From Aphrocallistes beatrix (taxonomy: Eukaryota; Porifera; Hexactinellida; Sceptrulophora; Aphrocallistidae): a stretch of DNA of 64,000 bases. Within the stretch, counting starts at the first letter, position 1. Every line of letters begins with the position of its first letter. The stretch covers positions 4,669,148-4,733,147 of the forward strand of contig OY725499.1 in NCBI GenBank assembly GCA_963281255.1. Reading direction: 5' to 3'. Below are positions 21,728 to 60,796 of this stretch, piece by piece. The notes beneath the pieces were generated by a model. The model searched no databases, had not been told where the DNA came from, and saw nothing but the letters and a program-made list of their open reading frames with translations. The translations under genes and the position numbers were made by a program.

Positions 21728-24700
21728 TTAATCTTGGGGTTCAACCTCGACATAAACCTTCTTAGCTGTCTGTTGGAGCCTTCCTAGCGGTTCTGGGTTC
21801 GGACGGGAAAGTTCAGATTTGGAGATCGTAATTTTTCTTAACTTTCGAAGTGTCTGTATAAGACAGCTAAGAGTGTTGCACGAAGCAGAGGTGAGTTCAC
21901 ACTCTACTATCAATAGCCTCCTTATGCCAGGATGACAAACTAGGCCATGACATAGCTCCATCATCCCAGAGTCACGTAGTGGGATAGCGCGCAGTACTAA
22001 ATGAACGAGTGAGGTTAGTGCTGCGATGCTGTTATGCCAACTTATGTCTTCTAAAATGAATTCGGAATAAGTCAACTTTAACGACATTAGATTAGAACAT
22101 AAAGCAATGCAGTTTAGGAAACTACTCCAGCTATCAATCCCTATGCTGTGTAATTCAGTGAAGTAGATCGCTTTTAACGAATCGTGATTTTTTGCGATTA
22201 TTTCGGTCAATAATTTCCCGTGGGAGGTATCAGGAGGCACTTCATCTGTAGAGAATAGCGTCAGGTATGAGATAGAGCTGAGGTGCTGTATATAGGGCAG
22301 GACTTTGTATGAATCTCTTTTTGTCCACCATTCTATCTCTTTGGAGACAGATGATAAGGTTTGAGGTATCATTTGCAGATAATCATTACGGTCAACAATG
22401 TAGATTCCATTTATCGGATATGCTAGCAAGCGTTGGAAAATTTGAACCCGGATCAGCCCATCAGATTCTTCTTTATGAGGGGCATAATAGAAATTATCTA
22501 ATGATTTGAATTGGTTGACGAGTGAGTCTAGTCTTTGAAAATCTATTTCAGAATTATCGATTCTTAAACTCCCAGCAAGTTTATTGACAGGAAATAATTG
22601 TTGTTGAGAAGGAATGGGACTTATCAATTTGCACCTTACAATATTGATACTGATTTTGGTGTTGGGAGGCAGAGAGACAGAAGAGAGGAAGTTAATGTAA
22701 GGATATATTGCATCGAAATCTTTTTCAACGAACAGCAGTGCAAAGTAGTGTAGTGAACAGGTGTAGGAGTTCAGTTTATTTAGGAGAGAGCTGAACTGTT
22801 CACTGGTAACAAAGTCAGACCGAATGCAAACAATTTGATATTCTCGAATATATTTCAGCGACTGAAGGAAGCAATGCCATTCGTTCGGGGTCACGGTATC
22901 TAGGAAATACAGATAGTAAGGTGATGGAAACTCCTTTTTGAGAAATGCAAAGTGCTTAGAGATTTTTGATGTAGTTTCGATAATCACTGTGGAAAGAAGA
23001 AGGTAGGACTGAGTGAATTTCCGCCAATCCGACATGTCAACAAGAGATATGTCGTAACGTAGTTGACAGCACATAGGCGCTTCACGGAGTGACATGGGTT
23101 TAGGGAAAGTATGGCGGCAGAGGATGGGTGTCATACGGCCTGCTTTCTCTTTTAAAATGCCAGCCATGAAACGAATTACCATTTTGTACATTGATATATA
23201 CTGGCTGGAAGATGTGATATAACGAAGGATGAAGCATTGATTGGGCCAGGAGTTATTAGAGATGGATACAGCGGCCATATACTCCTGAATGGTTAAGTGC
23301 TGGAAGGCCCATACCTTGACACGCACACCATACTTATCAACTTTCAAATGCACTTGCATTAAACCGAAGCGCTCACTGGGATAGATCTTACCATCGATCT
23401 CAAAAGAGATATTCTTATCGGATGTCATGACTCGCTCAAATATTCCCTGATTCGCCTCAAGTGCAACCTCATTGATGCACTCTCTAATGGCCGGGTGGAA
23501 TTCAGACATGCTTAACTTCTTGCTTTCCTCCTCGAGATCCATTCGGGACAATTGGCGACGGATGAGATACACTATGAGCTTAGTGTAGAGGTGTGATAGT
23601 GTTTCAGTAAGGATATCCTTTGACTCGTTGAAGAGAGCAGTAAACAAGCTCGCATTCACTGGCACTAGAGACAATTGTTTTATTTCATTGTGAAGCTGAA
23701 ACATTTCGTGGACCTGCTTTAGCTTGTCATTTGTCTCAATATTTTTTTCGAAGTATACATCTCGGTTCGCGGGAGAAAATCCTAACACTTGAAAATTCGT
23801 AGATTTAAAGTTTGCGTCGTACTTATACTTGAAATCGTACCAGGCGCTAGGTCGGCTGGTTACGAGGATGGTACTAAGTGGTAGGAACTGTCGCGCCAGC
23901 AACTTATACAGCAAAGAGGTTTCAAACGGGACACTCCTCGTGAACTCGTCTGCCCCGTCTATTATTATGAAAAGATCCTCTCCTTTGGTTGAGACCAAGT
24001 GTGAGGCAAGACATTTGCTCCAATGTTCGTCGGGAGACATGCTGAGTAAGAGCCAGCTAATAACAAATTCATTATCGACATTCTGATTTTTTTCATGTCT
24101 AACCTCCTCTAGTCTGTGCCATTCCTTACTCCTGCATGGAATTGAAACAGTGTAAAGAAAATTATTCAGCCTACCGGTTCCGTACATGTGAGCGAAGTGC
24201 TTGCAAAGAAAACTTTTACCGCTGCCGGGATTCCCGATCATGCACCAAAGTTGTTTTTCGCTCGAATCGCAACTTGTGACAATCTTATCAAAGTCTACTA
24301 CCTCAACAGTTTCATATTCATCCTGTTCGTTCATTTGACGTAAGAATTCAATCTCATTAAGCCCACTCTCTTCGACTTCTCTCTCCATACCAGGTTTAAT
24401 CTCTACTACGGTCAAAGGAATGTATATTGACTCTATCGGAACACGTTTATCTCCAAGCAATACACTAACATCTTTACTTTCCTTGAAAATAAATTCTATT
24501 AGATTTTTTTGCCCAATATTCTCGTTTAGATTGCTTTTGAGAATTACTTTCAACTGTTGATTACTAAATTTGTTAAAAGTAGATTCATATTTAAGAACTT
24601 TGCCAGCAAGATCATTAAGTTTTATTTTAACCAAAATCGAGTATAGTTTTCCTATGTTATTGGCGAATAGGTCATTTTCTATGCATAATTCCAAAGCTAT

Positions 24701-25084
24701 TTCTGCATTTATTTGTCCTATTCTTATCACTGAAATAGCTCGCAAGATTTTCTTCCAGTTTTCTGCTGTTAACTCTGCTTTGAGTAGATCTATAAAGGTT
24801 TTGGCACTTTGGATTTTCATTTTTTTTCGTCTGCATAACGATGGAATTTTGTCAGCAATAGGGACCAAGTCAGCTCTGCCTATCGCTTTCAAGCCAGCAC
24901 GGAATCCTTTTAGTTCAAAATTATCCCACTTCTCTAACGTAGCCAAGAAATCAGTTGCATCATCTATTTGCTCTATTAAGCCTGCAGGCATGTCCAGAAC
25001 ATTTTGAAGTTTCTTAATATTCTCTTTGGTTAGTTTCTCAGTCATTTCTTGGAATGGCTCAATATCTTCTTTGTTATCCGCCAT
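21728..25084 (-). CDS. DED-DED-NACHT-LRR-like receptor A
   Basis: A 1118-residue protein in one exon, likely a cytosolic NLR-type sensor. Residues 1-88 form a death-effector fold (LTKENIKKLQ, then RADL near 70). Residues 90-180 form a second, divergent one. The NACHT NTPase follows: Walker A GNPGSGKS at 284-291, Walker B LFIIIDGADEF near 371, and the sensor-like TILVTSRP near 405. The region to about 700 fits NACHT helical domains. The C-terminal third has leucine-rich-repeat-like segments (LTSLVHLVLRAIPLRDSGM). Upstream, TTTCTTAG on the minus strand 6 nt before the ATG suggests a spliced 5' UTR. A GTAAGT donor 10 nt after the stop suggests a 3' UTR intron or an alternative C-terminus. Receptor B on the opposite strand is a paralogue of equal length. 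All NTP-binding motifs are intact. Ligand and pathway are unknown. Confidence 0.9.
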   Translation of the reverse strand: MADNKEDIEPFQEMTEKLTKENIKKLQNVLDMPAGLIEQIDDATDFLATLEKWDNFELKGFRAGLKAIGRADLVPIADKIPSLCRRKKMKIQSAKTFIDLLKAELTAENWKKILRAISVIRIGQINAEIALELCIENDLFANNIGKLYSILVKIKLNDLAGKVLKYESTFNKFSNQQLKVILKSNLNENIGQKNLIEFIFKESKDVSVLLGDKRVPIESIYIPLTVVEIKPGMEREVEESGLNEIEFLRQMNEQDEYETVEVVDFDKIVTSCDSSEKQLWCMIGNPGSGKSFLCKHFAHMYGTGRLNNFLYTVSIPCRSKEWHRLEEVRHEKNQNVDNEFVISWLLLSMSPDEHWSKCLASHLVSTKGEDLFIIIDGADEFTRSVPFETSLLYKLLARQFLPLSTILVTSRPSAWYDFKYKYDANFKSTNFQVLGFSPANRDVYFEKNIETNDKLKQVHEMFQLHNEIKQLSLVPVNASLFTALFNESKDILTETLSHLYTKLIVYLIRRQLSRMDLEEESKKLSMSEFHPAIRECINEVALEANQGIFERVMTSDKNISFEIDGKIYPSERFGLMQVHLKVDKYGVRVKVWAFQHLTIQEYMAAVSISNNSWPNQCFILRYITSSSQYISMYKMVIRFMAGILKEKAGRMTPILCRHTFPKPMSLREAPMCCQLRYDISLVDMSDWRKFTQSYLLLSTVIIETTSKISKHFAFLKKEFPSPYYLYFLDTVTPNEWHCFLQSLKYIREYQIVCIRSDFVTSEQFSSLLNKLNSYTCSLHYFALLFVEKDFDAIYPYINFLSSVSLPPNTKISINIVRCKLISPIPSQQQLFPVNKLAGSLRIDNSEIDFQRLDSLVNQFKSLDNFYYAPHKEESDGLIRVQIFQRLLAYPINGIYIVDRNDYLQMIPQTLSSVSKEIEWWTKRDSYKVLPYIQHLSSISYLTLFSTDEVPPDTSHGKLLTEIIAKNHDSLKAIYFTELHSIGIDSWSSFLNCIALCSNLMSLKLTYSEFILEDISWHNSIAALTSLVHLVLRAIPLRDSGMMELCHGLVCHPGIRRLLIVECELTSASCNTLSCLIQTLRKLRKITISKSELSRPNPEPLGRLQQTAKKVYVEVEPQD

Positions 25085-25432
25085 TTCTATCTAAGAAATT
25101 AAAATATTATATTTGTTGCTTTTAAGAACAATTATGTATAAAGAAAAAGGAATATTTCCGTGTATGCTGTTTGTCTTTGGAACCAAGTACATTCCAAAAC
25201 TGTAGGGATGAAATATTATGAAATTTCGCCTTTAAAATACTTCCTTACTTATCCATTCTATTAATACTGTTTTCAGCATTTTTTACGATTTTCCAATATT
25301 AGAATGATTTTGTAGTTATTTTTACCTTATTTTGTACAGCTATTTTAGCAACAAATTGCTTCATAACAGTGAAACTGTTATATTTATTATTTTGAATTCC
25401 TACAGCCAACCATAACATAGATCATAGCCTAC
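25085..25432. other. Spacer upstream of receptor A
   Basis: AT-rich sequence that should contain the 5' UTR, intron and promoter of receptor A, transcribed leftward. No core promoter motif stands out. Confidence 0.35.
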
Positions 25433-33440: not shown

Positions 33441-33761
33441 TGCGATGGAAATCTTTCCAAATTCAAACTTCCTGTGATAATACACATGTGCAAGGTTGAG
33501 TAATTTAGTCACTGTACCCCGATTTTCGAGTTGTGCTGACTCATAATTCCCATTGATTTATTTATGTGCATTGAGTTAGGGGTCTAATCCAATATAATAA
33601 ATTTTATTGAATTCTGCAGTAAAATGTGCAGTGGAAATTCATTTATCCAAACCCCTTTTGGTTCCACCATTTTTTGGATATCTAAGATTCACTTTATTTA
33701 CATTTTTTATTAATCTGACTCGGTTTTCCATAATATTGCTCTTTTATTTTAGGTCCTATCA

Positions 33762-36700
33762 ATGTCAGGATATAGAGTCCCCAACACTTGTTTATCAAAG
33801 TTTTGCAATGCTTTAACTAGAGATGATATAGAAAAATTAAAAATTGATATTGTAGCTGCTGTGGGTGAATTTGATAATGTTTTTGAGCCTATTGATTTTC
33901 TCATTGTCCTCAATAACCGTGTGGATCATAACCCTTATCAGTTTGATTCAGCCCTTCAGCGTGTTAGGCCTGATCTCGTGGAAAAGGCTAGACTCATCCC
34001 CTGGCTATCTCTTCAGAGTTCAGGTGACGAGGAGAAAAACGGAGATGTGCTCAGTATGAAGAGCTTTGTCCATTTCCTAAATGCAAAAATCTCGCCTCGA
34101 GTTTGGAAGAATTTCCTTAATCAAAACGAGATCTACATTACCAAACTAGACTTAGCAGAAGTTGCTATATTATGTTTGAATAATAAGATAATCGAAAAGG
34201 ATTTGATAAACTTGAGGAACTTTTTTGAAAGTTTGAAAAAAAAAGACCTCCTTTTGAAACTGGAACCATATGTGAAAATGTTTTCTAAAATCAATGAATG
34301 GGAATTTGGAGATTATTATTTCTGTGAAACTCAAAAGGTAATCAAGTTAAGAGATGGTAAGTCAATATTTTTTATTATATTATTAAACAATATTATACAT
34401 AAATATTGTTAAAATGGGACATTTATTTGTAGTTATTTGCTTGTTGTACGTAAGATATACAATACGCTTCACGCACTTGCGTAGCGCGGCCAGTGAAGAC
34501 TTTGTGTTCACTGGCCGCGCTACGTAAGTTAGTCGCTGAAGAAGCGCGCTTGTTAGATATTATACGGGTTGCAATCCGAAGGAATTGCTTCAAGAAATAC
34601 TCGAACTTGGGCTATCTGCTATGTTCCCAAATACCATAATTGCACTACATATTTTTGTTAGTTTGCCTACATCAGTGGCTTCAGGAGAACGCACCTTCAA
34701 TGTTTTGAAGTAAGTTAAAAATTACCACCGTTCAACTATGGCTCAAGAGTGTTTAACTGGGCTGGCCATGCCTAATATCAATTATGATATTGCTATTGCA
34801 CGAAGATTATATTTTACCTCATTAATTGATGCATTCGCACAGAAAAAGCCTAGAAAAAGTATCAATTAAAGTTCGTTTGTATTCACATAATTACACTTAT
34901 ATTATCGTATAACATTTATCACTTCTTCTCATGTTTTCATTTATTGGAATTGTGGTCTCTTAATGACAATATCAATCTATTGTAATATCTTATATATTAA
35001 AACTCTAGGATTTTTTTTTTTTTGTTTTTTTTTGTTTGTTTGTCCGAATTGATTGAAGAATTGGCAAGTCGTAGAGATACGAAAATTGGCATGTAGGTGT
35101 CAAATGATGAATCTAGGATTAATTTCGAAGATCTAAGCGAAATGTTCGCACCTCGCCGAGATAGGTGACAAAATGTGCTGACCAATCAAATTCGATTATT
35201 TTATAATGCAAATACATTGGAATAAAATAGTATTGACTTATGCATACAATCAAAATAACTAATTGTGATTGAAATTCATTGGTTTATGTGAACCAATCAA
35301 TCATCAGCCTTTTATAATGCCATTCACACGATTCTATTTCATATAAATGATTGAATACTGCTATTTTCAGTCTATAATTTGATTGTTAACAACAATTAAA
35401 GTGTGTTATATGCTACGATCAATCAATTCGATCATAAAATAACTTTTAACGATATGGACTGGAATTGATTATTTAAGTATAATAATCTTTAGCAATGTGA
35501 ACTTTGTGTATTCAAATTGAGCTTATATTCAGGATAGTTGACTTAAGACTTAATACGAATTAAATTATATTTATCACGAAACAAAATTTCTGCTACAATT
35601 CTGATTTCATTAATGTAACCGTAGACAAATGGCAATCCAGCGTACTTAGTATAAAACAAGAATGCGACGTATTGTTTCTCTAATATCCCCAAGCACCCAC
35701 TGGGTAAATCTGCGGACACGCAGTGTCCGCAAGCCGCGCAGCGCAAGCAAGCGAAGCGCGCTTGTATATATTACAATGATTTCATTGTGAGTGTGAAGCC
35801 ATATATTTTGTTTAGAAAAGGTGTGGGAAATTGTTCTCCATGTTTTTTGCAGAGGCGTGAAAATTTCACTTAGATCTTAGAACTTAATCGCAGTCATATC
35901 ATTTGACACCTACATACCAATTTTCATGTCTCTACGACTTGCCAATTCTTTAATCAATTCGGACAAACAGAAAAAATCCTAGCGTTTTAATATACAAGAT
36001 ATTAACATGTACTACGGGCGTTCAATAAGTAGTCGTTATTGCAATTTATCTTGGTTGTTCCATTTAATTCAGAATTGGGTTAGCATATCTAATGTAGCCC
36101 TACCGATGCTCTTTCAAATGATACTTTACTTTTTCAATTCTGAGCTTTGGTTTTTATACTGTGGCTATTATTAGTTTGGCATTTTTATATACTGGCATTT
36201 ATTATGGCTTCCGAGAGTGCAGATTTCAAAACTGAGCAGCGAGCCTATGTAAAGACTCATACACTGCTCCAAGTTTCTTCAACCGACATCCACAAGGATT
36301 TGATGGAGGTTTATAATGATAGAACTCTTCCATATTCCACGATAGTTGACAGGACCCGACGTTTTCGTGAGGGAAGAGAGTCGATAGAAGATAAGCCCAG
36401 AGCAGGGAGGCCGATTTCCGGCGCCAGTGACAAATTTGTCCTCGAGGTTTCCGAATTACTTGAAGAAGACCCCCTATTTCATTGATGGAGATAGCTAATG
36501 CAGTTGGGGTCTCAACGGGAACCGCTCATACCATTGTGCATGACAATTTTCAATTTAGGAAAATCTGCGCTCGGTGAGTCCCGCATGCACTAGCACAGGC
36601 CCAGAAAACTAAGAGGGTTCAATGTGCTCAAAAGTTGCTTTCTGACTTCGATAGAACCGACTCCAGGAGTCTATTCGAGATCGTGACTGGTGATGAGACT

Positions 36701-39700
36701 TGGGTGCGTTATAGCGAGCCTTTGTCAAAGGAAGCTAACAAAGTATGGGTAGCTAAAGGCCAGGACCCACCAATAATCCCTCGATATGACTTCCGGAACC
36801 CCAAGGTTATGTACTGCATATTTTTTGATTCTTATGGTCCAGTGTGCCAGATTTGTGTCCCCAAGAATACCACTATTACTGGATCATTTTACATGAGTGA
36901 GTGCCTATCTGAGGTTGAGAAATTCTACCACAATCGACGGCCAAGGACTGGAACTCGAGGATTGAGATTATTGCATGATAATGCCCGACCCCACTAGACC
37001 AAACTGGTAAGGGAAAAGTTGGAAAGTCTGAGAGTTGTAGAGCTAGATCATCCTCCCTAATCACCAGACCTCGCTCCATGCGACTTTTGGCTCTTCCCTA
37101 AGCTGAAGAAACACCTTTCAGGGAGGGAATTCGAAAGTCGGCCTCACCTCGGATCTACGATTTTTCAGTATATGAAAGGTATACCACGTGGAGACTTCAA
37201 AAAAGTTTTTTGGATTGGATTAAGAGGCTAATACTAGTTATACAGCATCAAGGAGAGTAGTTCGAGAAATTGCAGCATTGATATTAATTATATTACTTGT
37301 TTTGGGGAAAGTATACTATGATAACGACTACTTATTGAATGCCCGTAGTAGTACTGTTGTGTATGATTTTGAGACCCGTATGATTTTGAGACCAGTTATT
37401 AACTAGCTTATACACCACTGACCAAGACAATATCGCATGTGTGCAAATTTTAAGCTATAAGGAACAAACGGGCTAACCAACAACAAGCTTGTTTTAATAG
37501 TAAAAGTTTTCAAAATAATCATTCATTTCCACGATAAAAATTAAATTGCTCAACACCAATTGTTGTACACTATAAATATCAACAGATAATTATCGTTATC
37601 AATCACCAAGTCGAAAATTAATAGCTAGAATAGCAATGCCACATTGTATTGAACACAAAACAATTTAGCAAAGGCAAGTTACAACGATAGATTAATATAT
37701 ATATCCCAAGATTTAAACATAGACAATGAAACAATGGATAACTAGTATTAATAACTGGTCTCAAATCACACGGGTCTAAAAATCATACGCAACAGTACAA
37801 ACAAACTTCGCTTGCTTTCGCTGCGCGGCATGCGCGCATTTTTTTATCTGGCCAAGTCATCCTTCGGGATCTTTTCTTATACATTCCGTATTTTATAGAA
37901 AAGCCCATACTAATTAGATTTATTCATAGTTTACTTTATACAGTCAGGGTCGCTTATTGTGAACCCGCTTAATATGAACATTCGTTTATTATGAACAAAC
38001 CTCCTGGTCCCAATTTCATTTTTAGATAGGATTTGTATTGAATCAAGCTCGCTTAATAGGAAGTATCTCTATTATGAACAGATTTTTTGGTCCTCTGGTG
38101 GTTCACAATAAGCGACCCTGACTGTATAAAGCCTAATAATAAAAGCACTTAGAAGTGCCCATAAACGACCTCTGAAAATCACCAATATTGTTACAAATTT
38201 AACCTATTGCGCAACCGGTGACTAATGATGACTAATCTAAATTTTAACAACGGATATGGGTACTTTGACACCATATTTATATATGCTGGTAATACATTCT
38301 TAAGCTCTATTGTGCTTTGTTAATGATTTAAGGCAGCTCATGTTTTAGCTCAACCATCTTCTACCGCATCCCTAGTCCTAAATCCGCATGTTACTGTGAA
38401 GCCTTATATACAGTAGGCTATGATTGATTATATTATTGGGTTCGCTTATTTTGAGTCTGCATGATATGAAATTAAATATACGTATCTCAACTATTACCAA
38501 CGTTTGATTGACTGTTTATTTCCTAGTTTTACTCTTTCCTTTTGTGCAATCCTTTAGATCTTCTTACAGAGATTCGGGATAGAGGAGATGATTTTACTGA
38601 GCTCTATGAGCAAGCTTGCCTAGAAGGTGAGCATGACGTTCAGTTTTTCAGGATTTTGATAGTGGGACCTGAAGGAGTGGGAAAGACTAGCTTACTGAAA
38701 GCTTTGAAAAATCAACCTTTCAATGAAAATGAGGATTCTACAAATCTCATTGATAAAACAGATATTACTATTGCGGATGTAGGCATGGAATGGATTCAAG
38801 ATGTGAATGTAAAAGATCATTTAATCGAGACAAGAGAGAATTGCGCTGCTAATGTAGCCATATACAACTTTCAAAATGAAAAGGAGACAAGAAGTACTAA
38901 TATAAAAAAGGTTTCATATGAACAAGATCCTGTAGGACAAGTTCAGGTTAAACCAGTTGATGAAATTCCTGAAGATCAAAATTGGGATCAAAAAAATCCC
39001 AGAGATCAGGTTGGGAAAAACAACGTGCCTGAAAATCAAGGTATAGGGAAGAATAATCCTAAAGATCAATTTACCGATAAAACTGTTTCCGAAAATCAAG
39101 TGATGGGAAAGACAATTCCTAAAACTAAATTTAAGGATAAAAGAGTTCCTGAAAATTTATTCACGGAAAAAGCTATTCCTAAAGCTGAAGTTGCAGATAA
39201 AAGGGTTCCTCAAAGTCAAGTTACGAAAAAAACAATTCCTGAAGATCAAGTCAGGAAAAATATCATATCTGAAAATCAAATTAACGAGAAGACATTTACT
39301 GAAATTAAAATGAAGGGAAAAGTAGTTAATGAAGAACTCGTGGATAGGATACGGAAAAATTTAGATAACGACCATCCCTCTGATCCGCTCAAATTTTTCA
39401 CAGTTTGGGATCTAGCAGGACAATCCTTTTTATTCAGTATGCATCCTCTGTTCCTTGCACAAAAAGCTGTCTACCTAGTCGCTGTTGATCTCTCGGTTAG
39501 CCTCAATGATAAAGTTATTTTTAGGAAAGATAGAAAGTTTAAAAGATTGGATAGGCGTGAATTGGAAGAGAAAACATACTTGGATATAACATTATACTGG
39601 ATACGTACCATATACTCTGTGACAAGTTCTGCTGGAAATAAAAAGGGAAAATGGAAATCTAGAATTGTGATAGTTTTTACTAAATCTGATAAAATACTTA

Positions 39701-42042
39701 ATCCTGAAGATAAAGCTAAAGCTAACTTTGAGGAAATTAAGAGAAATCTCAATCAGAAAACTAATTGTATGGAGATGGTAGACAAGAAATATCACATAGT
39801 AAGTTCAAAAGTGAGGTCTATTGAACATTTAAAATCGTTAAAGAATTATATTATCAGTAAAGGCGAACTTTTAAACACAAAACTACCCATCAACTGGTTA
39901 GATTTTGCTTTAAAGATTTTTTCACATGAAAAATCTGCTTTGGGCGGAAGAGATATTGAGAAGTTCGCGAATGATGCAGAATGTGAGGGACCCGTACAGA
40001 TCCTGGAGTGGTTCCACTCAATAGGAATTTTCTTCTTTAGAAGAAACATTCTATTCAAGTCACCGTCTGATTTGTTAGAGGTGATTTTTCATATTATTGC
40101 GCCAGAGTACTTGTATGTAAAAAAAAAATCAGATTTTCCACCGGACGTTGACAAAGCTGTGGAGAAAGCACTTCCAGACATTGATAGAGCTATGAATGAA
40201 GCACTTTTAACTGAAACATTTCTAAACATTATTCTAGAGATTAACTCCCTTCTCCATGTTAAATCTGAGATACTTCAGCTATGGGGAGAGTTTGGTATAA
40301 TATTGTACGAACACAAAGAACAACAGGAGTACTACATTCCTTATTTGTTCACTCAAGACTTAGAAAATGTTTACAATTCTAAACCAGATTATCAAAACAC
40401 TCTAATTCTCTACATTTATTTTTCTGATTTCCAGATACCCACTTCATTCTACTTTGCTTTCCTATCACTTTGTGTCGGAAGAAATCCTGAATCAGTTCTG
40501 GATCATGGATTTGATTGGGTGAGGTTTAAATGGGATGATAACATTACCTGCATAGTTGATAGTCCTAAAGAAGACCCATACATCCGTATTATCCTTCTGG
40601 GGATCAATTTAACACATTCCTCATCTGATATATCCTCTCTAACCCTTCAACTCGAAGAATGGATTCTAGACATAAAACTTACTAACATTGTAACTGGGAA
40701 AAATGCGAAAATAGTTCTTAACTGTCCTTGTGGTTCGTTTAAATCTAAACCTATTATTCCTTGTGCTTATTACGAAGCTTATATAAAGTGTTTACCTTAT
40801 GAGCCATTAGTCTGCAAAAAAATAGACCAAGAAACCTCAAAATATAATCAGTATTCTTGGTCATTTTTTAATAGGTACACAAATCCATTCAAAAATATCC
40901 CTTCTCAACTAGGAAAGGACTTTCTTGCGAAAAAAAATCCAAAATTATGTGAAGACTTTTTTGAGGGAAATACTACCTTTGATCAGTTAAACTTGATACC
41001 TCTTCTGAAAGATTTGCGCATAAATGATTTGATTGATTATGATGAATTTGCTGAATTTTATCAGTTGAAAGAGACTGAGAAGAGAAATTTTTTATTAGAA
41101 AAGCTTCCAAAGGGAAAGGCATGGGCTCAGAAATTCTATGAAATATTGAAACATAATAATGATTATCGCGATGCTACAAATTTGTTTGAAAAATATGTTA
41201 TTGAATGGCTCAGTTCAGATAAACTATCAGAGAACCCAGGTTTCACGCGATATCCATTTTATCACAATCCTTGTGGAGTCTGTCTTATAATCAACATTTG
41301 TAACTTCGACGATGCCGAGGGAATTAGGAGGAATGGCTCCGAGGCTGATGTTCTTAATTTAGAACAGACTTTTGAAAGTATGAATTTTCTGATTCGTTCA
41401 TACCAAGATTTAAAGCGGTCTGAATTTCTAGAAGTGTTGAACGATATTCGCACTTTAGATCACTCAGATTATGACACATTTTTCTGTATAATAATGTCGC
41501 ATGGTGATGAAACGGGGATATTTCCAAGTGACGTAGCTACAGAAGATCAAATCTCTATCAAAGAAATTCGAAATCTTTTCACAGATGAAAACTGCGAAAG
41601 TTTAAAAGGAAAGCCTAAAATATTTATTGTTCAAGCATGCAGGGGAGATAAAAAGCACGAAATCCAGAATATAAAGAAAGGTTCATCAAAATACACGGAT
41701 CTAGACTCTGGCGAAACTCCCAAGCCCAAAACTGAAACTCCTCAGAAAGAAATAGAACAATCTAGGAGAGAACAAAAGGGTACGATACCTGCTGATTTTT
41801 ACACACCACAAGCAACAGTGAAAGAATATGTCTCATATCGTGACCCCATAGAAGGAAGCTATTTTATTAAGACTCTATGTTCAGTTTTGAAAAAACAGAG
41901 ATTCAACCATCATCTGGTTGATATTATGATAGAGGTGCGTAGACAAGTATCTGAAGAAGAAATAAAAATAGGAACACAAATAACACAACAATGTACAGAA
42001 GATGATAATAACACATTGAGGCACCCATTTTTTGTATATTAA
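33762..42042 (+). CDS. DED-DED-Roc-COR-CARD-caspase fusion protein
   Basis: Two exons, 33762-34356 and 38558-42042, give 1359 residues. Acceptor TTTATTTTAG lies 9 nt before the ATG, donor GATG/GTAAGT follows exon 1, and acceptor CAATCCTTTAG precedes exon 2; phases match. Residues 10-85 are a DED (LTRDDIEKLK, RPDL) and 97-175 a second. Next is a Roc GTPase: P-loop GPEGVGKTS at 235-243, DLAGQ near 483, TKSD at 573-576. A 12-copy, 10-residue repeat (334-453) lies between P-loop and DLAGQ. COR-like sequence follows (INWLDFALKIF, ILEWFHSIGIFFFRRN). About 1005-1080 is CARD-like (LLEKLPKGKAWAQKFYEIL). The caspase domain keeps His in MSHGDE (1180) and Cys in QACRGD (1226), plus the p10 motif YVSYRDPIEGSYFIKTLC. 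An acidic linker (YTDLDSG) between subunits is a possible self-cleavage site. Inferred role: a GTPase-switched, self-contained caspase receptor. Joining exon 1 to exon 2 rests on phase and lack of alternatives; no transcript is available. Confidence 0.82.
34356..34556 (+). mobile_element. Helitron-like 3' module in the DED-caspase gene intron
   Basis: The GC module occupies 34462-34556, with a long palindrome (GCGCGGCCAGTGAAGAC and GTTCACTGGCCGCGC), ending CTTG then T. It lies directly downstream of the first exon of the DED-caspase gene. The start of the element is undefined. Confidence 0.45.
34988..35764 (+). mobile_element. Complete Helitron-like non-autonomous element
   Basis: Starts TCTTATATATTAAAACTC after A, contains a T-rich TTTGTTTGTTTGTCCG stretch, and ends with GC hairpins (CGCAGCGCAAGCAAGCGAAG) and CTTG followed by T. 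No terminal inverted repeats or target duplication are needed to explain it, as expected for Helitrons inserting between A and T. The usual 3' end is CTRR; CTTG departs from that. To its right, 35850-36000 is an inverted copy of the 5' end, so a second element may abut it. No helicase is encoded. Confidence 0.6.
36012..37348 (+). mobile_element. mariner element, full length, transposase dead
   Basis: 1337 bp with 28-bp terminal inverted repeats (starting CTACGGGCGTTCAATAAG; right end CTACGGGCATTCAATAAG inverted, one difference overall) and a TA duplication at 36010-36011 and 37349-37350. It carries a broken transposase. It sits in the intron of the DED-caspase gene in the same orientation. 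Confidence 0.95.
36204..37237 (+). pseudogene. mariner transposase pseudogene (DD34D)
   Basis: The reading starts MASESADFKTEQRAYVKTH at 36204, with the paired helix-turn-helix region (RRFREGRESIEDKPRAGRP), then loses frame near 36480. It continues in another frame with a stop near 36580, then VTGDETWVRYSEPLSKEANK, HDNARPH followed by a stop, and SPDLAPCDFWLFP after a second stop. The catalytic aspartates (GDETW, HDN, CDFW) are spaced as in DD34D mariners. One frameshift and three in-frame stops make it inactive. Normal length would be about 345 residues. Confidence 0.92.
37354..37795. mobile_element. CTGTTGC palindromic element P3
   Basis: 442 bp starting CTGTTGTGTATGATTTTGAG and ending with the inverse CATACGCAACAG, flanked by TA on both sides. 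Each end has two direct copies of GTATGATTTTGAGACC, slightly diverged at the right. It is inserted three bases from the TA duplication of the mariner element. The interior (37420-37730) pairs less perfectly than in P1, P4 and P5. Confidence 0.75.
37941..38124. mobile_element. CAGTCAGGGTCGCTTATT MITE, copy 2
   Basis: 184 bp, same ends and interior as the copy at 32728, flanked by TA on both sides. It lies in the intron of the DED-caspase gene. Confidence 0.85.
38128..38422. mobile_element. CATAGCCT-family element Q3, right half only
   Basis: Matches the right arms of Q1, Q4 and Q5 from CACTTAGAAGTGCCC through GGCAGCTCATG to the end AGGCTATG. The left arm is absent, so the palindrome is broken. 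Confidence 0.7.
38962..39321 (+). repeat. Twelve 30-bp coding repeats inside the Roc domain
   Basis: Twelve consecutive 10-residue units of the form (V/I)P(E/K)xQxxxK, for example NVPENQGIGK, TVSENQVMGK, RVPENLFTEK and TIPEDQVRKN. They lie between the P-loop and the DLAGQ motif, where Roc domains carry only a short switch region. The array stays in frame and is rich in K, E, N and Q, so it is probably a disordered, charged insertion. Confidence 0.9.
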
Positions 42043-43445: not shown

Positions 43446-44408
43446 CTGTTGCGTGGTATTCTGAGGCACCGTGGTATTTTGAGGCACTAGTCAAATTAAC
43501 CATGGATATTCAACTTGCGTGGTATTCTGAGGTACCGTGGTATTCTGAGGCAACACCAACCTGTGATCATGATGCGATCATTTACATAGTTCTAATTTAG
43601 ACAATGACTTTCCATTTGAGTAGTGATACTTGTATGTTTTCCCTGCTCTAAATAGTGTATTGTGCTTCATGACCTGGAATGCTTATTAAATAATATGTTT
43701 ATTCGTCTCATTATTCAGGACATACAATACAAATAGAAAAAAATCTGTGAGTACTGTTGCGTGGTATTTTGAGATATATCGTAGTATTCTGAGATTTTGT
43801 TTCGCTTACTCAAATGGCATTGTGGTTCAATCGGTTTCATCGTAACCTGATAACCACCGCCACCAAATTGTGGAACATGACACAATTTGATGGCACGCGA
43901 CACAATTTACTATGGTAGAACCCCATATGGACCATGGATAAAGTATATGTTTCATTCATGCCATCAAATTGTGTCATGTTCCACAATTTGGTGGCGGTGG
44001 TTATCAGGTCACGATGAAACCGATTGAACCACAATGCCATTTGAGTAAGCGAAACAAAATCTCAGAATGCTACGATATATCTCAAAATACCACGCAACAG
44101 TACTCACAAATTTTTTTCTATTTGTATTGTATGTCCTGAATAATGAGACGAATAAACATATTATTTAATAAGCATTCCAGGTCATGAAGCACAATACACT
44201 ATTTAGAGCAGGGAAAACATACAAGTATCACTACTCAAATGGAAAGTCATTGTCTAAATTAGAACTATGTAAATGATCGCATCATGATCACAGGTTGGTG
44301 TTGCCTCAGAATACCACGGTACCTCAGAATACCACGCAAGTTGAATATCCATGGTTAATTTGACTAGTGCCTCAAAATACCACGGTGCCTCAGAATACCA
44401 CGCAACAG
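43446..44408. mobile_element. CTGTTGC palindromic element P4 (outer)
   Basis: Two arms of exactly 306 nt (43446-43751 and 44103-44408) are inverted copies meeting at GTGAGTACTCAC, so the original element was a 614-bp palindrome with no loop. It starts CTGTTGCGTGGTATTCTGAG and is flanked by AA on both sides. Each arm carries several copies of GTGGTATTCTGAGG. Element P5 is inserted at its exact centre. Confidence 0.88.
43754..44100. mobile_element. CTGTTGC palindromic element P5 (nested in P4)
   Basis: 347 bp, starting CTGTTGCGTGGTATTTTGAG and ending with the inverse, flanked by TA on both sides. Arms contain GTAGTATTCTGAG-like subrepeats and a core with CACCAAATTGTGGAAC and ATATGGACCATGGATA shared with P1. 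Removing it and one TA restores the dyad centre of P4. Confidence 0.85.
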
Positions 44409-47473: not shown

Positions 47474-47819
47474 ATGTCTTCTATGACAGTTAATATGCAG
47501 AATTTAGTGTTCTTCTTAAAAACGGAAGTCTCCTCTGGAATTTGGAAGAGATTGCTCCTCACTTACAGATTTGGTGCTCTTGAGTTGGATTTGGAAGAAG
47601 CTTTTAAGTTTTGTTTAAAAAGAAAGATAATCCAAAAGGATTTGATAAACTTAAGTGTTGCCTTTCAGAGTGTCGAAAGAGATGATCTTGCGTCTAAACT
47701 CCAACCATATATGTTGTCGTTTTCTGAGATGAGTGACACTGAATTTGAGAATTATTTTTTATTTGTTACTAAGCAAAATAAGAAAAAACATTATAGATAT
47801 TATACAGAAGATAATTCTG
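47474..47819 (+). CDS. DED exon (second-DED type), probable 5' exon of receptor B
   Basis: An open frame from ATG 47474, directly after GTCTTGATAG (a possible acceptor), to a donor at 47820 (TCTG/GTTAGT). It encodes about 115 residues homologous to the second DED of the DED-caspase gene (KRKIIQKDLINLSVAFQSVE and LASKLQPYMLSFSEMSDTEF correspond to NKIIEKDLINLRNFFESLK and the following helix). It ends in phase 1 and the receptor B exon at 50374 begins with the two missing bases, so the two join in frame (EDNSG-IYDLFNLKEL). It is either the first coding exon of receptor B, giving three DED folds, or a leftover cassette. No first-DED exon was found upstream. Confidence 0.6.
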
Positions 47820-47839
47820 GTTAGTTCATTAAGTTATCC

Positions 47840-49830: not shown

Positions 49831-50373
49831 TGTCAATATATGAATTTTGATGGTCAAGATTTCTTGTTGAGTAGTGTGAGCGATATTCTCGACATCACTG
49901 GTATTCCTATTGCAAAAATATTCAATATATACCTAACGTAACTAAATCTCAAAAATTTGCTCGATATTGTCACTTTTGATTTTTTAGAGTCGTGTATTCC
50001 CAAATCGTATTTCATATATGTCATTACAACTGAAAATATGGCTCAACATTGGTCTTGATTATATACGCTTTCGTTATAGTAGAATGACTTTTAGGTAGCA
50101 TGTTTTGTTGATTGTTATTCAACCCCATACTTGCAAACTGTCCCGTTTTTAAATGAAATTTTCCCATTATATGTCCCGATTTTTTTAATTCTATGTATAA
50201 TACTTTTTTATTGCGTCCCGCCATGTCCCGCGAAATTCAACGCTGCTTCCCTTTTTTATCATGGCTCAGGTTGGCTATGCAACCCAAAATTTACTTCTGT
50301 GACTATTTTCTTATTTAATGTGCATACTAAGATTTTAAAATACCCTATAATTTTAACATTTGTATTTCTACAG
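49831..50373. other. Intron upstream of receptor B main exon
   Basis: AT-rich, ends in a good acceptor (TTTGTATTTCTACAG). No other feature recognised. Confidence 0.4.
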
Positions 50374-53300
50374 GGATATATGACCTGTTTAACCTGAAAG
50401 AACTCATAGAGAGACTGAGCAGAGACGACATCAAGAAACTGCTCGATGCTCTGTCAGTACCAGAAGGTGTCTACCATTGGGAATCTGATGCAACATACTT
50501 TCTGATCGCGTTGAAAGGATGGACAGAATTCAACCCTTTCAGTTTCTACAAATGCCTTAACTCCGTACGACCAGACTTAGTTCCTATCGCTCTCAATATC
50601 AAATGGTTGTGCACTAACTACCCTGTAACTCTAACCACAGAACCATTAACCATCAAAAGCTTCATTGAAACGCTACAGAATGGAATATCGATCCTAGACT
50701 TGAAAATACTGCACATCGAGCACTACAAAGGAAAAACCAGTGAGGAAGTTTGCTTTGAAACTACGATGCAACTTTTGGTTACAAACAATTTGATTCAAGG
50801 AGACTTGTCCAGTTTATCTCAACTACTGAACAGCCTCAAACTGAACGAACTTGTACAAAGACTCCAACCGTACAAAGCAGCCTTTCAAACTATGTCAGAT
50901 CAAGAATTCACTTCCAAATTCAAGAAAGAATTGACTCGTCTTGGAAAGCAAATAGTCGAATGGGAAAATTTAGTGAAAGTCCACCTAGAAACCCAATTCA
51001 GGGACGTGAAACAGATGTTAGGGAGTGATACGGCTGTCAGCCTAGAGAAGGTGTACGTCGATCTGACAATACTCAAGCAGATGCCGAGAAGAGTGAAACT
51101 AGAAGATGAGACGACATACAACGAAATTGCATATTTGAGGAAAATTGCGAATAAAGAAGTTGAAGTTTCTCCGATAAACTTCACTGAAGAACTGAAATCC
51201 TGCGACCCGTCCAAGCCAGAAATATGGTGTTTCATCGGAAACCTCGGATGCGGTAAAACATTCCTGTGCAACCGCACCGCACTCAGATTCGGGAATAACG
51301 AAGTATCCGCATTCTCCTACTCTCTGTGCATCCCCTGCAAGAATAAAGAGTGGCACGAGATGGAGTCTTCACGTGTGGACGCAGGTTTCCCAATCACCAC
51401 CGAATTCATTTGTCAATGGCTTTGCCTCGGTCTACCAGTCGGTCCCAGTTGGACGACACAACTGGCAAAGCACATCCATATACAGACGGAGAAGGACTGC
51501 TACTGATCGTAGACGGTTTGGACGAATTCACAAAAGATGTCCCCTTCGACAAAACTCTCCTCTTCCTCCTCCTGACCAGACAGACTCTGACACGGTCCTT
51601 CATCCTACTGACCAGCAGGCCTGGCGCCTGGACAGATGTGTCAACTTCGCACCAGCTCCACATCTCCACCTTCTTCCAAGTGTTGGGGTTCTCTCCTGAA
51701 CAGAGAGACCTGTACTTCGAGAAACAATTTGAGGACACTTCCCTGTTCGATCGGTGCACTGGCCTCCTCGATCGTTACGACGAGATGAAACAGCTGTCTC
51801 TGATTCCAGTGAACGCGTCCCTGTTCGCTGCCCTGCTGAAAAGTGAAGAAGGAGCTCGCATCCACACACTGACACAACTCTACTACGAGCTGATTCTGTA
51901 CCTGATACGGCGACAGCTGGACCGAATGGGATTCGAAGAATTAACTGAAGTAAACGAAATCTGTGAGCTGGATAGCGGCGTTGTGGAATGTCTGCACGAG
52001 ATCGGTTATATCGCGTACCAGGGCGTGGCCATGAGGGAGATGATCTCCGACAAAAAGGTGCCACTGCAAATTGGAAGTGTGAAGATGGCCAGCCACTGTC
52101 TGGGTCTCGTGCACGAATATGTGAGAGAGGAGAAGATGGGTTACTTCACGAAGGTGTGGTCTTTCGCTCATCTGACCATCCAAGAGTTCATTGGTGCCAT
52201 CTGGCTTCATAGCACGAAATGGCACGACCAGTGTCTGTCCGTGAGGTTCATTGTGCATACGAACGACGTGTTCTCCCAGTTCCGCATGGTGGTGAGATTC
52301 CTGTGTGGACTGTTGTCCGACCAGTCAATGAATGTGTTTTATCTCCTCTACAAACACGTGACACCTCGCCCTGTTCCCATCTCCCAACTTCCTGAAGTTA
52401 TCCAACTCAGGTTTCAAAGTTATGTATTATTCAAATACACAGGCTGGAATGAATTCACGGAAAAGTTTCTCCAACTGAACGCCATGCTACGTGAATCGAA
52501 CTCTGAATCCATTTCGAAATATTTCAACGCGTGCAGACGTTTCCTGCCTGAATCAATCTGTTTGTACATTGAGAGTGCAGTGACTCCCAACGAGTGGCTC
52601 TGTTTCCTCGAATCCCTGCCACTTCTTAGCCACATCCACCTCATTTATGTGGATTCTTATTACGTCACTCCGGAACAACTCTTCCTTCTATTAGAGTCCG
52701 TTGAACAATGCTCTGTGGATTGTGTAGCATTGAAATTATCCAGGAAATCTAACACAGAAGTTCTCCCTTATGCGAATGTAATCCAACGCACTCAGCTGTC
52801 TAACACTAAGCTAAGTTTAGACCTGTACGATAGTAAGCTAACTGAAACTGAAACAGTCAAAGCCTTATTCTCCTCCTCAGCCAATCAGATTATATCAGGC
52901 CTGCGTTTATATAATAATGAATTTCCTCCTGACACTTACAGTCTGCTGACCAATCAGATATCAACTTGTCAGAAGTTAGTATATATACACAGTGACACCT
53001 CTGAAAGTGAAGTTCTATTTTCAGCTCTTTCCTCTGCCACACACATCAATGGATTACACCTCTATCTCATTCCCACTAAATACCATCAACAGCTGTTCTC
53101 TCTGCTGCCTACACTCCCTAACCTCAGAGAAATATCATGGGATGACTACTCTATTCTACCTCACATAACACACCTCTCTACTCTGTCCTTCCTAGATATA
53201 GGATATAATCAGGATACTCGTGTCAACCTCTCAGACAGTCTGCTACAGCTGCTGGACTCAAACAGACACTCAATCAGAGTATTGGAATTATGGAATTTAG

Positions 53301-53731
53301 AGAATATAGGATTCAGCAGTTTAGATGGATTTCTCCGTTGTTTGCATTTCTGTACTAATTTAGTACAGCTGGAACTACATGATGCTCGTTTAAGTTGTGA
53401 TGATGTCACTCTCTGGTGCTCGACACTTCACAGTCTCACTTCTTTACTATATTTGCGTATTTCCGATGTCTTCCTATCTGACTCAGGAATGTTGAGTCTG
53501 TGTAGAGGTCTTCTCTTCCATCCTACCATTAGATATTTGTGGGTATACGACTGTAAACTGAGTTCCGATTCCTGTCAACCTCTCAGAAACCTGATTCCTA
53601 CCCTCACACAGCTGAAGTACCTGAAAGTGGATGGACTCTCTGGACCAGAAACTGAACCTATCAAACTCCTCAAGCTAACAGCTGATCAGTATGCTATAGA
53701 GCATGAACTTGATTCGGTAATAATAAGTTAA
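50374..53731 (+). CDS. DED-DED-NACHT-LRR-like receptor B, with a frameshift
   Basis: The main exon starts after TTTCTACAG and encodes about 1118 residues, the size of receptor A. Domains: DED (LIERLSRDDIKKLLDALSVP, RPDLVPIA), second DED (IKSFIETLQN to QRLQPYKAAF), NACHT with Walker A GNLGCGKT at 51237, Walker B LLLIVDGLDEF at 51497 and FILLTSRPGAWTD, then LRR-like repeats (LTSLLYLRISDVFLSDSGM). Between the Walker motifs the frame shifts by one base near 51494-51497: the first frame stops at 51506, and the second is open to 53731. Everything on both sides is intact, so this is a one-base deletion, either genuine (a null allele or young pseudogene) or an assembly error. The true start lies in an upstream exon, perhaps 47474-47819. 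Codon use is less AT-rich than in receptor A. Confidence 0.85.
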
Positions 53732-58765: not shown

Positions 58766-58876
58766 ACAGCCAATCAGATTTAATGCACTGTTCCATACTA
58801 ATTAAGTTCTGTACTCTCTTTCTTACTCGGCGCTATATTCTATAATATCCACACTTCCGCTAGCTGATTGGTAGAA

Positions 58877-60796
58877 ATGGCGCTGAGGGGGCTGAGGGTC
58901 CTGGAAATGGCGGGTTTGGCGCCCGCCCCGTTCGCGGGTCTGATCCTCTCCGACTTCGGCTGTGACGTCATCCGAGTGGACAGGTGCTCGCCGCACCAAA
59001 CGGACACTCTCTCCCGCAACAAGAAGTCCGTCGCGCTCAACCTCAAGCATTCCGAGGGCGTGTCCCTGTTGCTAGGGCTGGTACGTGCGAGTGACGTCAT
59101 CATAGAGCCGTTCCGTCCGGGCGTGATGGAGCGGATGGGTCTGGGTCCGGACGTCTGTCTGCGGGAGAGGCCGGGGCTCGTATACGCGCGGCTGAGCGGC
59201 TACGGACAGGAGGGACCGCTGCGGGCCAAGGCGGGCCACGACGTGAACTACCTCGCCGTGAGCGGACTGCTCTCCTGCCTCGGACCCAGGGGACACCCGC
59301 CACACCCGCCAGTCAACTTCCTGGCAGACTTCGCAGGTCAGTCAGCTAGCTGTGTAATGTGTGGGGTCTTAGGATCAGTCTCTGTGCTATAGCAAGGTCG
59401 GTGACCTATGGGAGCGGAGTTGGAAATATTTGTGGGTCGACAGACTGACATTTATGTAGATTCAGGGTTGGTAACTCTAGACAGGCGTGCCACTAGCACA
59501 CAATGTCATGAATATATTTGCATTATAAGTGAACTGGTACACTTCACTCAGAAGGTTGCCTACCTCTGCTATAGCATTCCTCCATCAGATTCCATTCTGC
59601 AGTGGTTTTGTAGAATTGGTGTGAACTCACTATTATAATGCTTGTGGCTGAGGTTAGCTTATCAGAAGAGTTAATATTAGAATATATGCATTGACACTAA
59701 CCAAGCACTGCTTGGCTGAGCTGCCACTTCACACCTTTCCTCAGGTGGCAGTCTGCTGTGCGTGGTGGGAATCCTCTCGGCTCTAATCTCGCGCTTCAGC
59801 AGCGGACGCGGGCAGGTGGTGGACGCCAGCATGGTGGACGGGGCCGCCTACCTGTCCACATTCCTTCTCTCCACTCGGTCGCTAGGGATGTGGCAAGGGG
59901 AGCGGGGGACGAACCTCTTGGACGGAGGCGCGCACTTCTACTCGGTGTACCGGACCAGGGACGGGAAGTTCCTGGCGGTGGGCGCCCTGGAGCCTCAGTT
60001 CTACGCTCAGCTGCTGCAGGGACTCCAGATATCCGGCGAACTCCCCCACCAGATGGACTCAGACACCTGGGCCGGGATGAAGGAGAAGTTCCAGGAGGTA
60101 ACACCTCTTAGCTCATCTTCTAAGCTCCAATCCTTGCACTGTCCTATATAAGGCTGCAGTCAGGTCGCTTATTGTGAACCACCAGGAAAATATGTTCATA
60201 ATAGAGATACTTCATATTAAGCGAACTTGATTCAATACAAATCCTATCTAAAAAAATGACATTGGGACCAGGAGATTTGTTCAGAATAAGCGTCCCTGAC
60301 TGTACTTATTGCCATATATGGCAGTGCAACCAGATTATTTTAGGATTAGTTAGTATCTCTGTTGATTTAAATATATTCCACCTTTGCTGTAGAAAGTCAG
60401 TTGTTAGTGTTACTCGTGTTGATTCATAGAACAACCAATGAATAACCTGAGTTGTCTCCTCAGATATTCCTGAAGAGAGATCGAGATGATTGGCTGGAGC
60501 AGTTCGAAGGTTTGGACGCTTGTGTCACTCCTGTCTTGGACCTGCATTCCGGAGAGGCTGCCCGTGACAACGCTAACGCCTCCAGGAATGTGTACGACCT
60601 ATCTTCACAGCCCTACATTCCAAACCCAGCTCCCCGTCTCCAGGAAACGCCCGCCTCTTCGCTCCCTTCAAGAACTCCCTTCGTGGGGGAGCACACACAT
60701 TCCATTCTCTCAGAAGTGTTGTCAATGAGTGATCACAAAATTCGAGATTTATTTGAACGAAAAGTGGTACAATCTTACCCAGCAACGAAACTCTAG
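58877..60796 (+). CDS. AMACR: Alpha-methylacyl-CoA racemase
   Basis: CoA-transferase family III enzyme that interconverts (R)- and (S)-2-methylacyl-CoA in branched-chain fatty acid and bile-acid-type side chain oxidation, in peroxisomes and mitochondria. Exons 58877-59336, 59745-60097 and 60464-60796 give 381 residues, the usual family length. The start MALRGLRVLEMAGLAPAPF is the typical N-terminus; TTG codons just upstream are not used. Catalytic His-Asp pair in KAGHDVNYLAVSG and the conserved Asp in NFLADFAGGG are present. The C-terminus ends ATKL; the last three residues TKL are a weak variant of the peroxisomal PTS1 signal. ATTAAA at 60835 is a likely polyadenylation signal. It begins only about 110 bp after the MAPK15 stop, on the same strand. 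Confidence 0.95.
60157..60302. mobile_element. CAGTCAGGGTCGCTTATT MITE, copy 4, in AMACR intron 2
   Basis: 146 bp with ends CAGTCAGGTCGCTTATTGTG and the inverse, in reverse orientation relative to copy 1. One side is flanked by TG rather than TA, so one flank has mutated. Confidence 0.8.

Follow-up and report, generated by a model that had tools for sequence, protein, structure and literature searches.

A predicted glass sponge gene that places a putative tandem DED in front of a ROCO-caspase core

The 64,000-nucleotide stretch of the Aphrocallistes beatrix genome analysed here (the window) contains a gene of two predicted exons, in which a probable, divergent tandem DED is followed by a Roc GTPase, a COR-like region, a putative CARD and a caspase. 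The gene is real and unusual, and it combines known kinds of component (ROCO, caspase and DED) with no new kind of domain. Comparison with related sequences leads us to favour, with moderate confidence, the view that its product is a transducer resembling caspase-8, equipped with its own GTP switch and recruited by the DED-NACHT proteins of this sponge. Death-pathway docking domains, an LRRK2-like GTP switch and a protease usually reside on several proteins and here apparently share one; if the gene is expressed, the GTP switch of a death pathway and its protease would be found together on one animal polypeptide. The control of an attached effector by Roc-COR nucleotide state is still debated for LRRK2 and DAPK1, and the protein would permit a direct test of Roc-COR nucleotide cycling over such an effector, with caspase cleavage as the read-out.

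The features of the gene and its surroundings are collected in Table 1. The exons lie in open reading frames of 219 codons (33753-34412) and 1171 codons (38527-42042), in agreement with the coordinates and frames of a preliminary description of the window. The matching phases it reported were also confirmed: the donor at 34357 (GATG/GTAAGT, the slash marking the exon end) and the acceptor at 38558 are each in phase 1, and the predicted join runs in frame for 1359 amino acids without an internal stop. The junction is not unique, however, because a second in-frame splice pair is present (34338 with 38527, phase 0), which would give 1363 amino acids. Exon 2 has no Met 5' of the P-loop, so that with ATG starts a further coding exon must precede it. 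Its use alone is for the same reason thought unlikely, although a TTG start is possible, as in database entry P0001, which is the same ORF. A chance ORF was rejected in view of the length of the longer frame and its presence at ten loci and in database entries. A hidden NACHT exon was rejected as well, since tblastn found no NACHT remnant either within the intron or over the 8.6 kb that precede the gene; the same search gave two chance-level NACHT matches, both upstream of the related locus L016.

Table 1. Predicted features of the DED-ROCO-caspase gene and of nearby DED sequences (window positions)
Feature	Position	Strand	Remarks
Neighbouring tandem-DED-NACHT gene	21728..25090	-	1120 codons; C-terminus repeat-like by eye; proposed partner family
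Acceptor-like site directly 5' of exon 1	exon start 33753	+	
Exon 1, tandem DED	33762..34356	+	ATG start 33762; DED1 ~33786-34016, DED2 ~34056-34313
5' splice site GTAAGT	34357..34362	+	phase 1; GTAATC at 34338 (phase 0) as an alternative
Predicted intron, 4.2 kb	34357..38557	+	contains several inverted-repeat elements
Element in intron, which we take to be mariner-like from its sequence appearance	36010..37350		terminal inverted repeats of 30 nt; two transposase-like frames (36144-36485, 36578-36997)
Exon 2, Roc-COR-CARD-caspase	38558..42042	+	phase-1 acceptor, AG 38556-38557
Roc GTPase	38647..39861	+	P-loop GPEGVGKT 38665-38688; WDLAGQ 39406-39423; TKSD 39679-39690
Low-complexity Roc insert	~38857-39381	+	60-nt tandem repeat inside
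COR-like region	39868..40731	+	approximate limits; Foldseek to 3dpu/6hlu; weak Pfam COR-A in relatives
Putative CARD	40903..41217	+	limits drawn from model helices
Caspase (Peptidase_C14)	41275..41988	+	MSHGDE His 41500-41502; QACRGD Cys 41638-41640; SYRDPIEGSYF motif
Lone DED2-like ORF	47474..47824	+	closest to exon 1 among DEDs compared, 40% over 91 columns
Second DED-NACHT gene	50331..53731	+	two overlapping frames: DED in first, NACHT in second

The caspase of exon 2 gave a Peptidase_C14 match of 164.6 bits (E 3.9e-48, Pfam), above the curated cut-off, and matches caspase-3 and caspase-8 chains in PDB. With both catalytic residues in place (MSHGDE and QACRGD), as had been described, and the SYRDPIEGSYF motif also present, the caspase is apparently intact. 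The GTPase motifs reported for Roc were likewise recovered (GPEGVGKT, WDLAGQ and TKSD); the domain scored 46.3 bits against a Pfam cut-off of 27 and carries a low-complexity insert of ~175 residues. Roc was matched by Pfam in 9/9 family members (E <=0.01), and a profile of nine members found LRRK2 in PDB (E 3.3e-10). The COR-like assignment fared less evenly. With a poor model of exon 2 (mean pLDDT 48), Foldseek placed the Roco Roc-COR structure 3dpu first (E 1.6e-8, 474 columns), but the superposition was poor (rmsd 14, TM 0.36 on the target), and Pfam, COR-A included, gave no COR match in the window protein. C. tepidum Roco occupied Foldseek rows 1-3 (3dpu, then 6hlu), LRRK1 row 5 and LRRK2 rows 7 and 12, with caspases between; all 50 best VIA-align rows for this model were caspases and are therefore uninformative on Roc-COR. 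COR-A was matched in one of the nine family members (E <=0.01), and reached 24 bits in P0010, below the cut-off of 35.3. For the CARD-like helix bundle of the preliminary description, seven of seven family members scanned matched CARD in this region at E <=0.5 (best 3.1e-9); the CARD region of the window copy remained below the cut-off of 23.9 (18.8 bits, E 0.0016), and the whole exon-2 ORF gave a CARD match at E 0.48 (Pfam). CARD was not matched in P0010 or P0011. The domains named in the preliminary description hold overall, the sequence signal of COR and CARD being weak in the window copy.

Exon 1 alone, to which the DED folds had been assigned, had no Pfam match, its search against 5.8 billion proteins returned only itself, and its poor, low-confidence model (mean pLDDT 62, built on four sequences) found nothing in Foldseek at E <0.001. 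It probably encodes a divergent tandem DED. The genome contains at least 150 matches to exon 1 (173 candidates, of which 150 were scored), and among the 150 listed 87 lie in frames of at least 1000 amino acids and 44 in frames shorter than 300. NACHT was present in both family genes that were scanned, namely the two neighbours in the window, neither of which matched a Pfam LRR; the split form of the second (50331-53731) would reflect either a pseudogene or an assembly error. The lone DED2-like ORF had no Pfam match at E <=0.001. From these sequence relationships we infer that the exon-1 DED is of the adaptor type, and belongs to the same family as that which fronts the expanded DED-NACHT genes of this sponge.

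The DEDs of caspase-8, FADD and FLIP assemble into filaments, proximity activates initiator caspases, and Roc-COR is a nucleotide-dependent dimerisation device. By analogy, a transducer of the kind that we favour would dock through DED-DED contacts between its exon-1 pair and oligomerised DED-NACHT proteins of the same sponge, while the nucleotide state of Roc-COR would decide whether the chains dimerise and the CARD would contribute filament contacts. Crowding would then activate the C-terminal caspase, which could cut itself free at the linker and so lead to cell death or inflammation.

The polypeptide could instead be a self-contained receptor, as the preliminary description suggested; a ligand or stress would then act on it directly, and its own DEDs and CARD would oligomerise it. 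Adaptor, switch and effector would indeed share one chain, and a paralogue, L012, joins NACHT to the same core. In neither exon, however, did Pfam recognise an LRR, WD40 or any other sensing module; NACHT and LRR, which together define an NLR, are both missing from either exon; the Roc insert is of low complexity; and the DED is common to a large family in the genome. Since no sensor domain was matched, and since nearby DED-NACHT genes have a DED of the same family, we prefer a transducer, and regard a receptor as unlikely for the window gene. The idea of a self-contained receptor is a better fit to the NACHT version at L012.

The genome that was searched (100.5 Mb in 28 contigs) holds ten ROCO-caspase loci, comprising the window, L014 and L016 on contig C7, L012 and L013 on C18, L009, L010, L011 and L047 on C17, and L015 on C1, to which a degenerate piece at C7:4236684 is additional. 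The reading frame is broken at L016 and L047, L011 is without the WD[LF]AG pattern, and L013 and L015 are without the TKxD-like pattern. The four loci on C17 lie in a dense cluster of caspase-family sequences (C17 338000-450000). In protein databases, exon 2 retrieved 12 rows, consisting of the window, ten Roc-plus-caspase proteins and one Stylophora ROCO without a caspase (7998 candidates scored), and P0011 retrieved 33, in which 26 had Roc and caspase, three caspase only and four Roc only. Sought elsewhere in this manner, the Roc-plus-caspase core recurs in 33 entries besides that of the window, some perhaps from the same species; both searches scored only candidates sharing words with the query, and carry no inference on absence from other animals. 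The three named entries (P0009, P0027 and P0039) are all from the glass sponge Oopsacas minuta, and are listed as caspase-3 or caspase-3-like. Among 40 database relatives, fragments included, the P-loop was found in 37, WD[LF]AG[QR] in 36 and a TKxD-like pattern in 28, and the caspase His and Cys motifs in 36 and 35, respectively.

At L012 a single ORF of 1739 amino acids (L012:4300-9516) reads NACHT-Roc-COR-CARD-caspase, with NACHT, Roc, CARD and caspase all above cut-off; its counterparts are P0002, which is probably from the same species since the branch lengths between it and the L012 core are zero, and seven further NACHT/Roc/caspase database proteins. Support is weak for an LRR region lying between the NACHT and Roc domains. 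L012 itself had no Pfam LRR match, and the signals in relatives were LRR_1 at E 0.14 in P0002, LRR_4 at E 4e-4, below cut-off, in P0005, and a precomputed PF13516 for P0008. Judged from its sequence, the L012 type is possibly a true all-in-one receptor-protease. Other members carry caspase-like sequence at the front. L013 (L013:3283-9201) has a second caspase-family match of 34 bits within its N-terminal 700 amino acids, and the N-terminus common to L015 (L015:4003-9150), P0010 and P0011 aligns weakly to caspase (hhalign probability 79%, E 1.5e-5); despite this extra region, P0010 and P0011 contain the catalytic patterns only once, in the C-terminal caspase. The predicted proteins thus have a constant ROCO-caspase core, whereas the front module varies between NACHT, a tandem DED and caspase-like sequence. 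On the reading that we favour, this glass-sponge family has exchanged the module preceding Roc, and a phase-1 intron was the route for the DED version.

The arrangement seen in the window is not confined to it. A DED-like ORF lies upstream of the Roc exon, on the same strand, at four loci (the window, L009, L010 and L047, one of them degenerate), and each of the four DED exons has a phase-1 donor, although the first half of that at L009 reads N. The gap to the Roc exon is 0.5-2.6 kb at L009, L010 and L047. No upstream DED was found at L011, L014 or L016; in the case of L014, N fills half of the preceding 9.1 kb. The Roc-exon acceptor, which by eye stands at the identical position, before EIxxRG or its counterpart, in 7/7 DED-type and related loci, fits in phase in six, among them L047 with an in-frame stop just after; at L011 this fit has been lost. 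In the NACHT version this position falls within continuous coding sequence. Because the DED exon recurs at four loci, the acceptor position is the same at all seven and the P-loop of exon 2 is not preceded by a Met, it is well supported, though not proven, that both exons would contribute to one polypeptide as the preliminary description proposed. At L010 the pre-acceptor sequences of the DED and Roc exons (1800-1916 versus 4900-5051) look alike by eye, which would fit a duplication of the exon that also took in the end of the intron.

Chance proximity bears on whether the two exons belong to separate genes, in which case exon 1 would be a gene for DEDs alone, similar to FADD or FLIP, and the ROCO-caspase would use a different first exon or start at a codon other than ATG. 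At the density of the whole genome (150 matches over 100.5 Mb) the probability of a same-strand DED within the 4.2-kb gap is 0.3%, and at the high local density (three other DEDs in 64 kb) it rises to ~9%. That exon 1 reads only ~18 codons past its donor, that so many of the listed DED matches (44/150) lie in short frames, and that P0001 was called from TTG are all consistent with two genes. At L009, L010 and L047, however, the arrangement, the strand and the phase-1 donor are repeated across short gaps, for which the genome-density probabilities are 0.04-0.2%, these three loci being paralogues and therefore counting as about one event. Exon 1 does contain a compatible donor, no NACHT remnant was found in the intron or the preceding 8.6 kb, and we consider two genes quite improbable.

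The origin of the DED exon is less clear than its recurrence. The DEDs of L009, L010 and L047 nest among nearby DEDs of the family (support 100/98), and their donor, GGTAAGCAA, lies within the codons for LGKQ; in the seven related DED genes compared these codons begin GGAAAGCA, and the donor thus differs from coding sequence by a Gly-synonymous base. Holding the four DED-ROCO DEDs together was rejected (p-AU 0.0068), but was not rejected with the lone DED2-like ORF added (0.052), earlier runs without L047 having given 0.018 and 0.060; such topology tests suffer from rows that are long or short, as are those of the window copy and the lone ORF. In the core tree the window copy groups with L014/L016 (96/97) on a long end branch of 1.25 changes per column, and the clade test (p 2e-31) rejects only a clade that omits L011, L014 and L016. 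As no DED was seen at L014 or L016, one early gain followed by losses or swaps is possible. The case for separate origins of the DED in the window gene and of those on C17 is thereby weakened; the sequences suggest repeated recruitment of DEDs. Among the DED exons of L009, L010 and L047, dN/dS is ~0.6-1.0, indicating little constraint. It is very improbable that the window gene is a relic or a non-enzymatic gene, weakly or not expressed and at most a scaffold, as might be read from its long branch, the broken frames of L016 and L047 and these dN/dS values, for it keeps an open frame of 1171 codons with every tested GTPase and caspase motif.

Among known systems, caspase-8/-10 resemble the predicted product in that a tandem DED precedes the C-terminal caspase; there it does so directly, whereas in the window protein ~700 residues (Roc, COR-like and CARD) intervene. 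ROCO proteins (LRRK1/2, DAPK1, MFHAS1 and bacterial Roco) share Roc with a COR-like region; in the window protein, by contrast, a caspase takes the place of the kinase as output, a tandem DED provides the input, and Roc has its long low-complexity insert. The NACHT-ROCO-CARD-caspase proteins of glass sponges (L012 and the 'Caspase-3-like' P0009 of O. minuta) have the same core at ~39-41% identity, but in them NACHT and the weakly supported LRR region replace the tandem DED and one continuous ORF replaces the two exons. The preliminary description knew of no described system with this domain order, and the titles and abstract openings among the matches listed (open-licence PMC, without bioRxiv) did not contradict it, none describing DED-Roc-COR-CARD-caspase. 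Fusion of Roc-COR to a C-terminal caspase is, however, in print: bacterial AP-GTPase-COR conflict proteins bear C-terminal effectors that include caspase, and differ in having N-terminal LRRs, with no DED or CARD on the chain mentioned in the accessible portion of that paper (PMC8195603). The amphioxus shortcut hybrids (TNFR-caspase and DED-NACHT) are similarly sensor/adaptor-effector fusions made by domain shuffling, and differ in that Roc, COR and GTPase do not occur in the available text (PMC2575513). In Trichoplax there are at least 17 ROCO genes, whose further domains include CARD, death, LRR, TPR and AAA, TIR appearing in a legend (PMC4104024, in part); exon shuffling is recorded in brown algal ROCOs (PMC11378527, in part) and ROCO domains in Aplysia TLRs (PMC9334734, in part), and PMC6321704 (in part) was also among the literature compared. 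In the accessible part of the Aphrocallistes genome paper, Oopsacas minuta is treated as a glass sponge, and caspase, NACHT and Roc do not occur (PMC10282587).

More tentatively, and with less conviction than for the transducer itself, we suggest that glass sponges have combinatorial all-in-one ROCO-caspases with NACHT, a tandem DED or caspase-like sequence in front. The DED version would act as an AND-gate, in which the caspase fires only if DED-NACHT proteins assemble the DEDs and the nucleotide bound to Roc-COR is permissive, and would thus be the equivalent of caspase-8 under GTP control. The DED fusion may have more than one origin, one lineage arising from a DED-NACHT-type DED through a donor in the conserved Gly-Lys codons after DED2. 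The gene also bears on how sensing might be wired to death in glass sponges, where tandem-DED-fronted genes contrast with the NLRs of the demosponge Dysidea avara, which carry CARD or Death, with seven DED, in the part of the source available; a legend there lists COR and CASc as domains, whether of the same protein being unstated (PMC12909245).

Elsewhere in the window, Rfam gave no matches, and a scan of ten small ORFs yielded one Pfam match at E <=0.001 (CoA_transf_3), which marks a CoA-transferase family III exon at 58868-59389 on the forward strand. Directly downstream of the ROCO-caspase gene, at 43446-44408, lies a 450-nt inverted repeat, the arms of which are 99% complementary and 63 nt apart.
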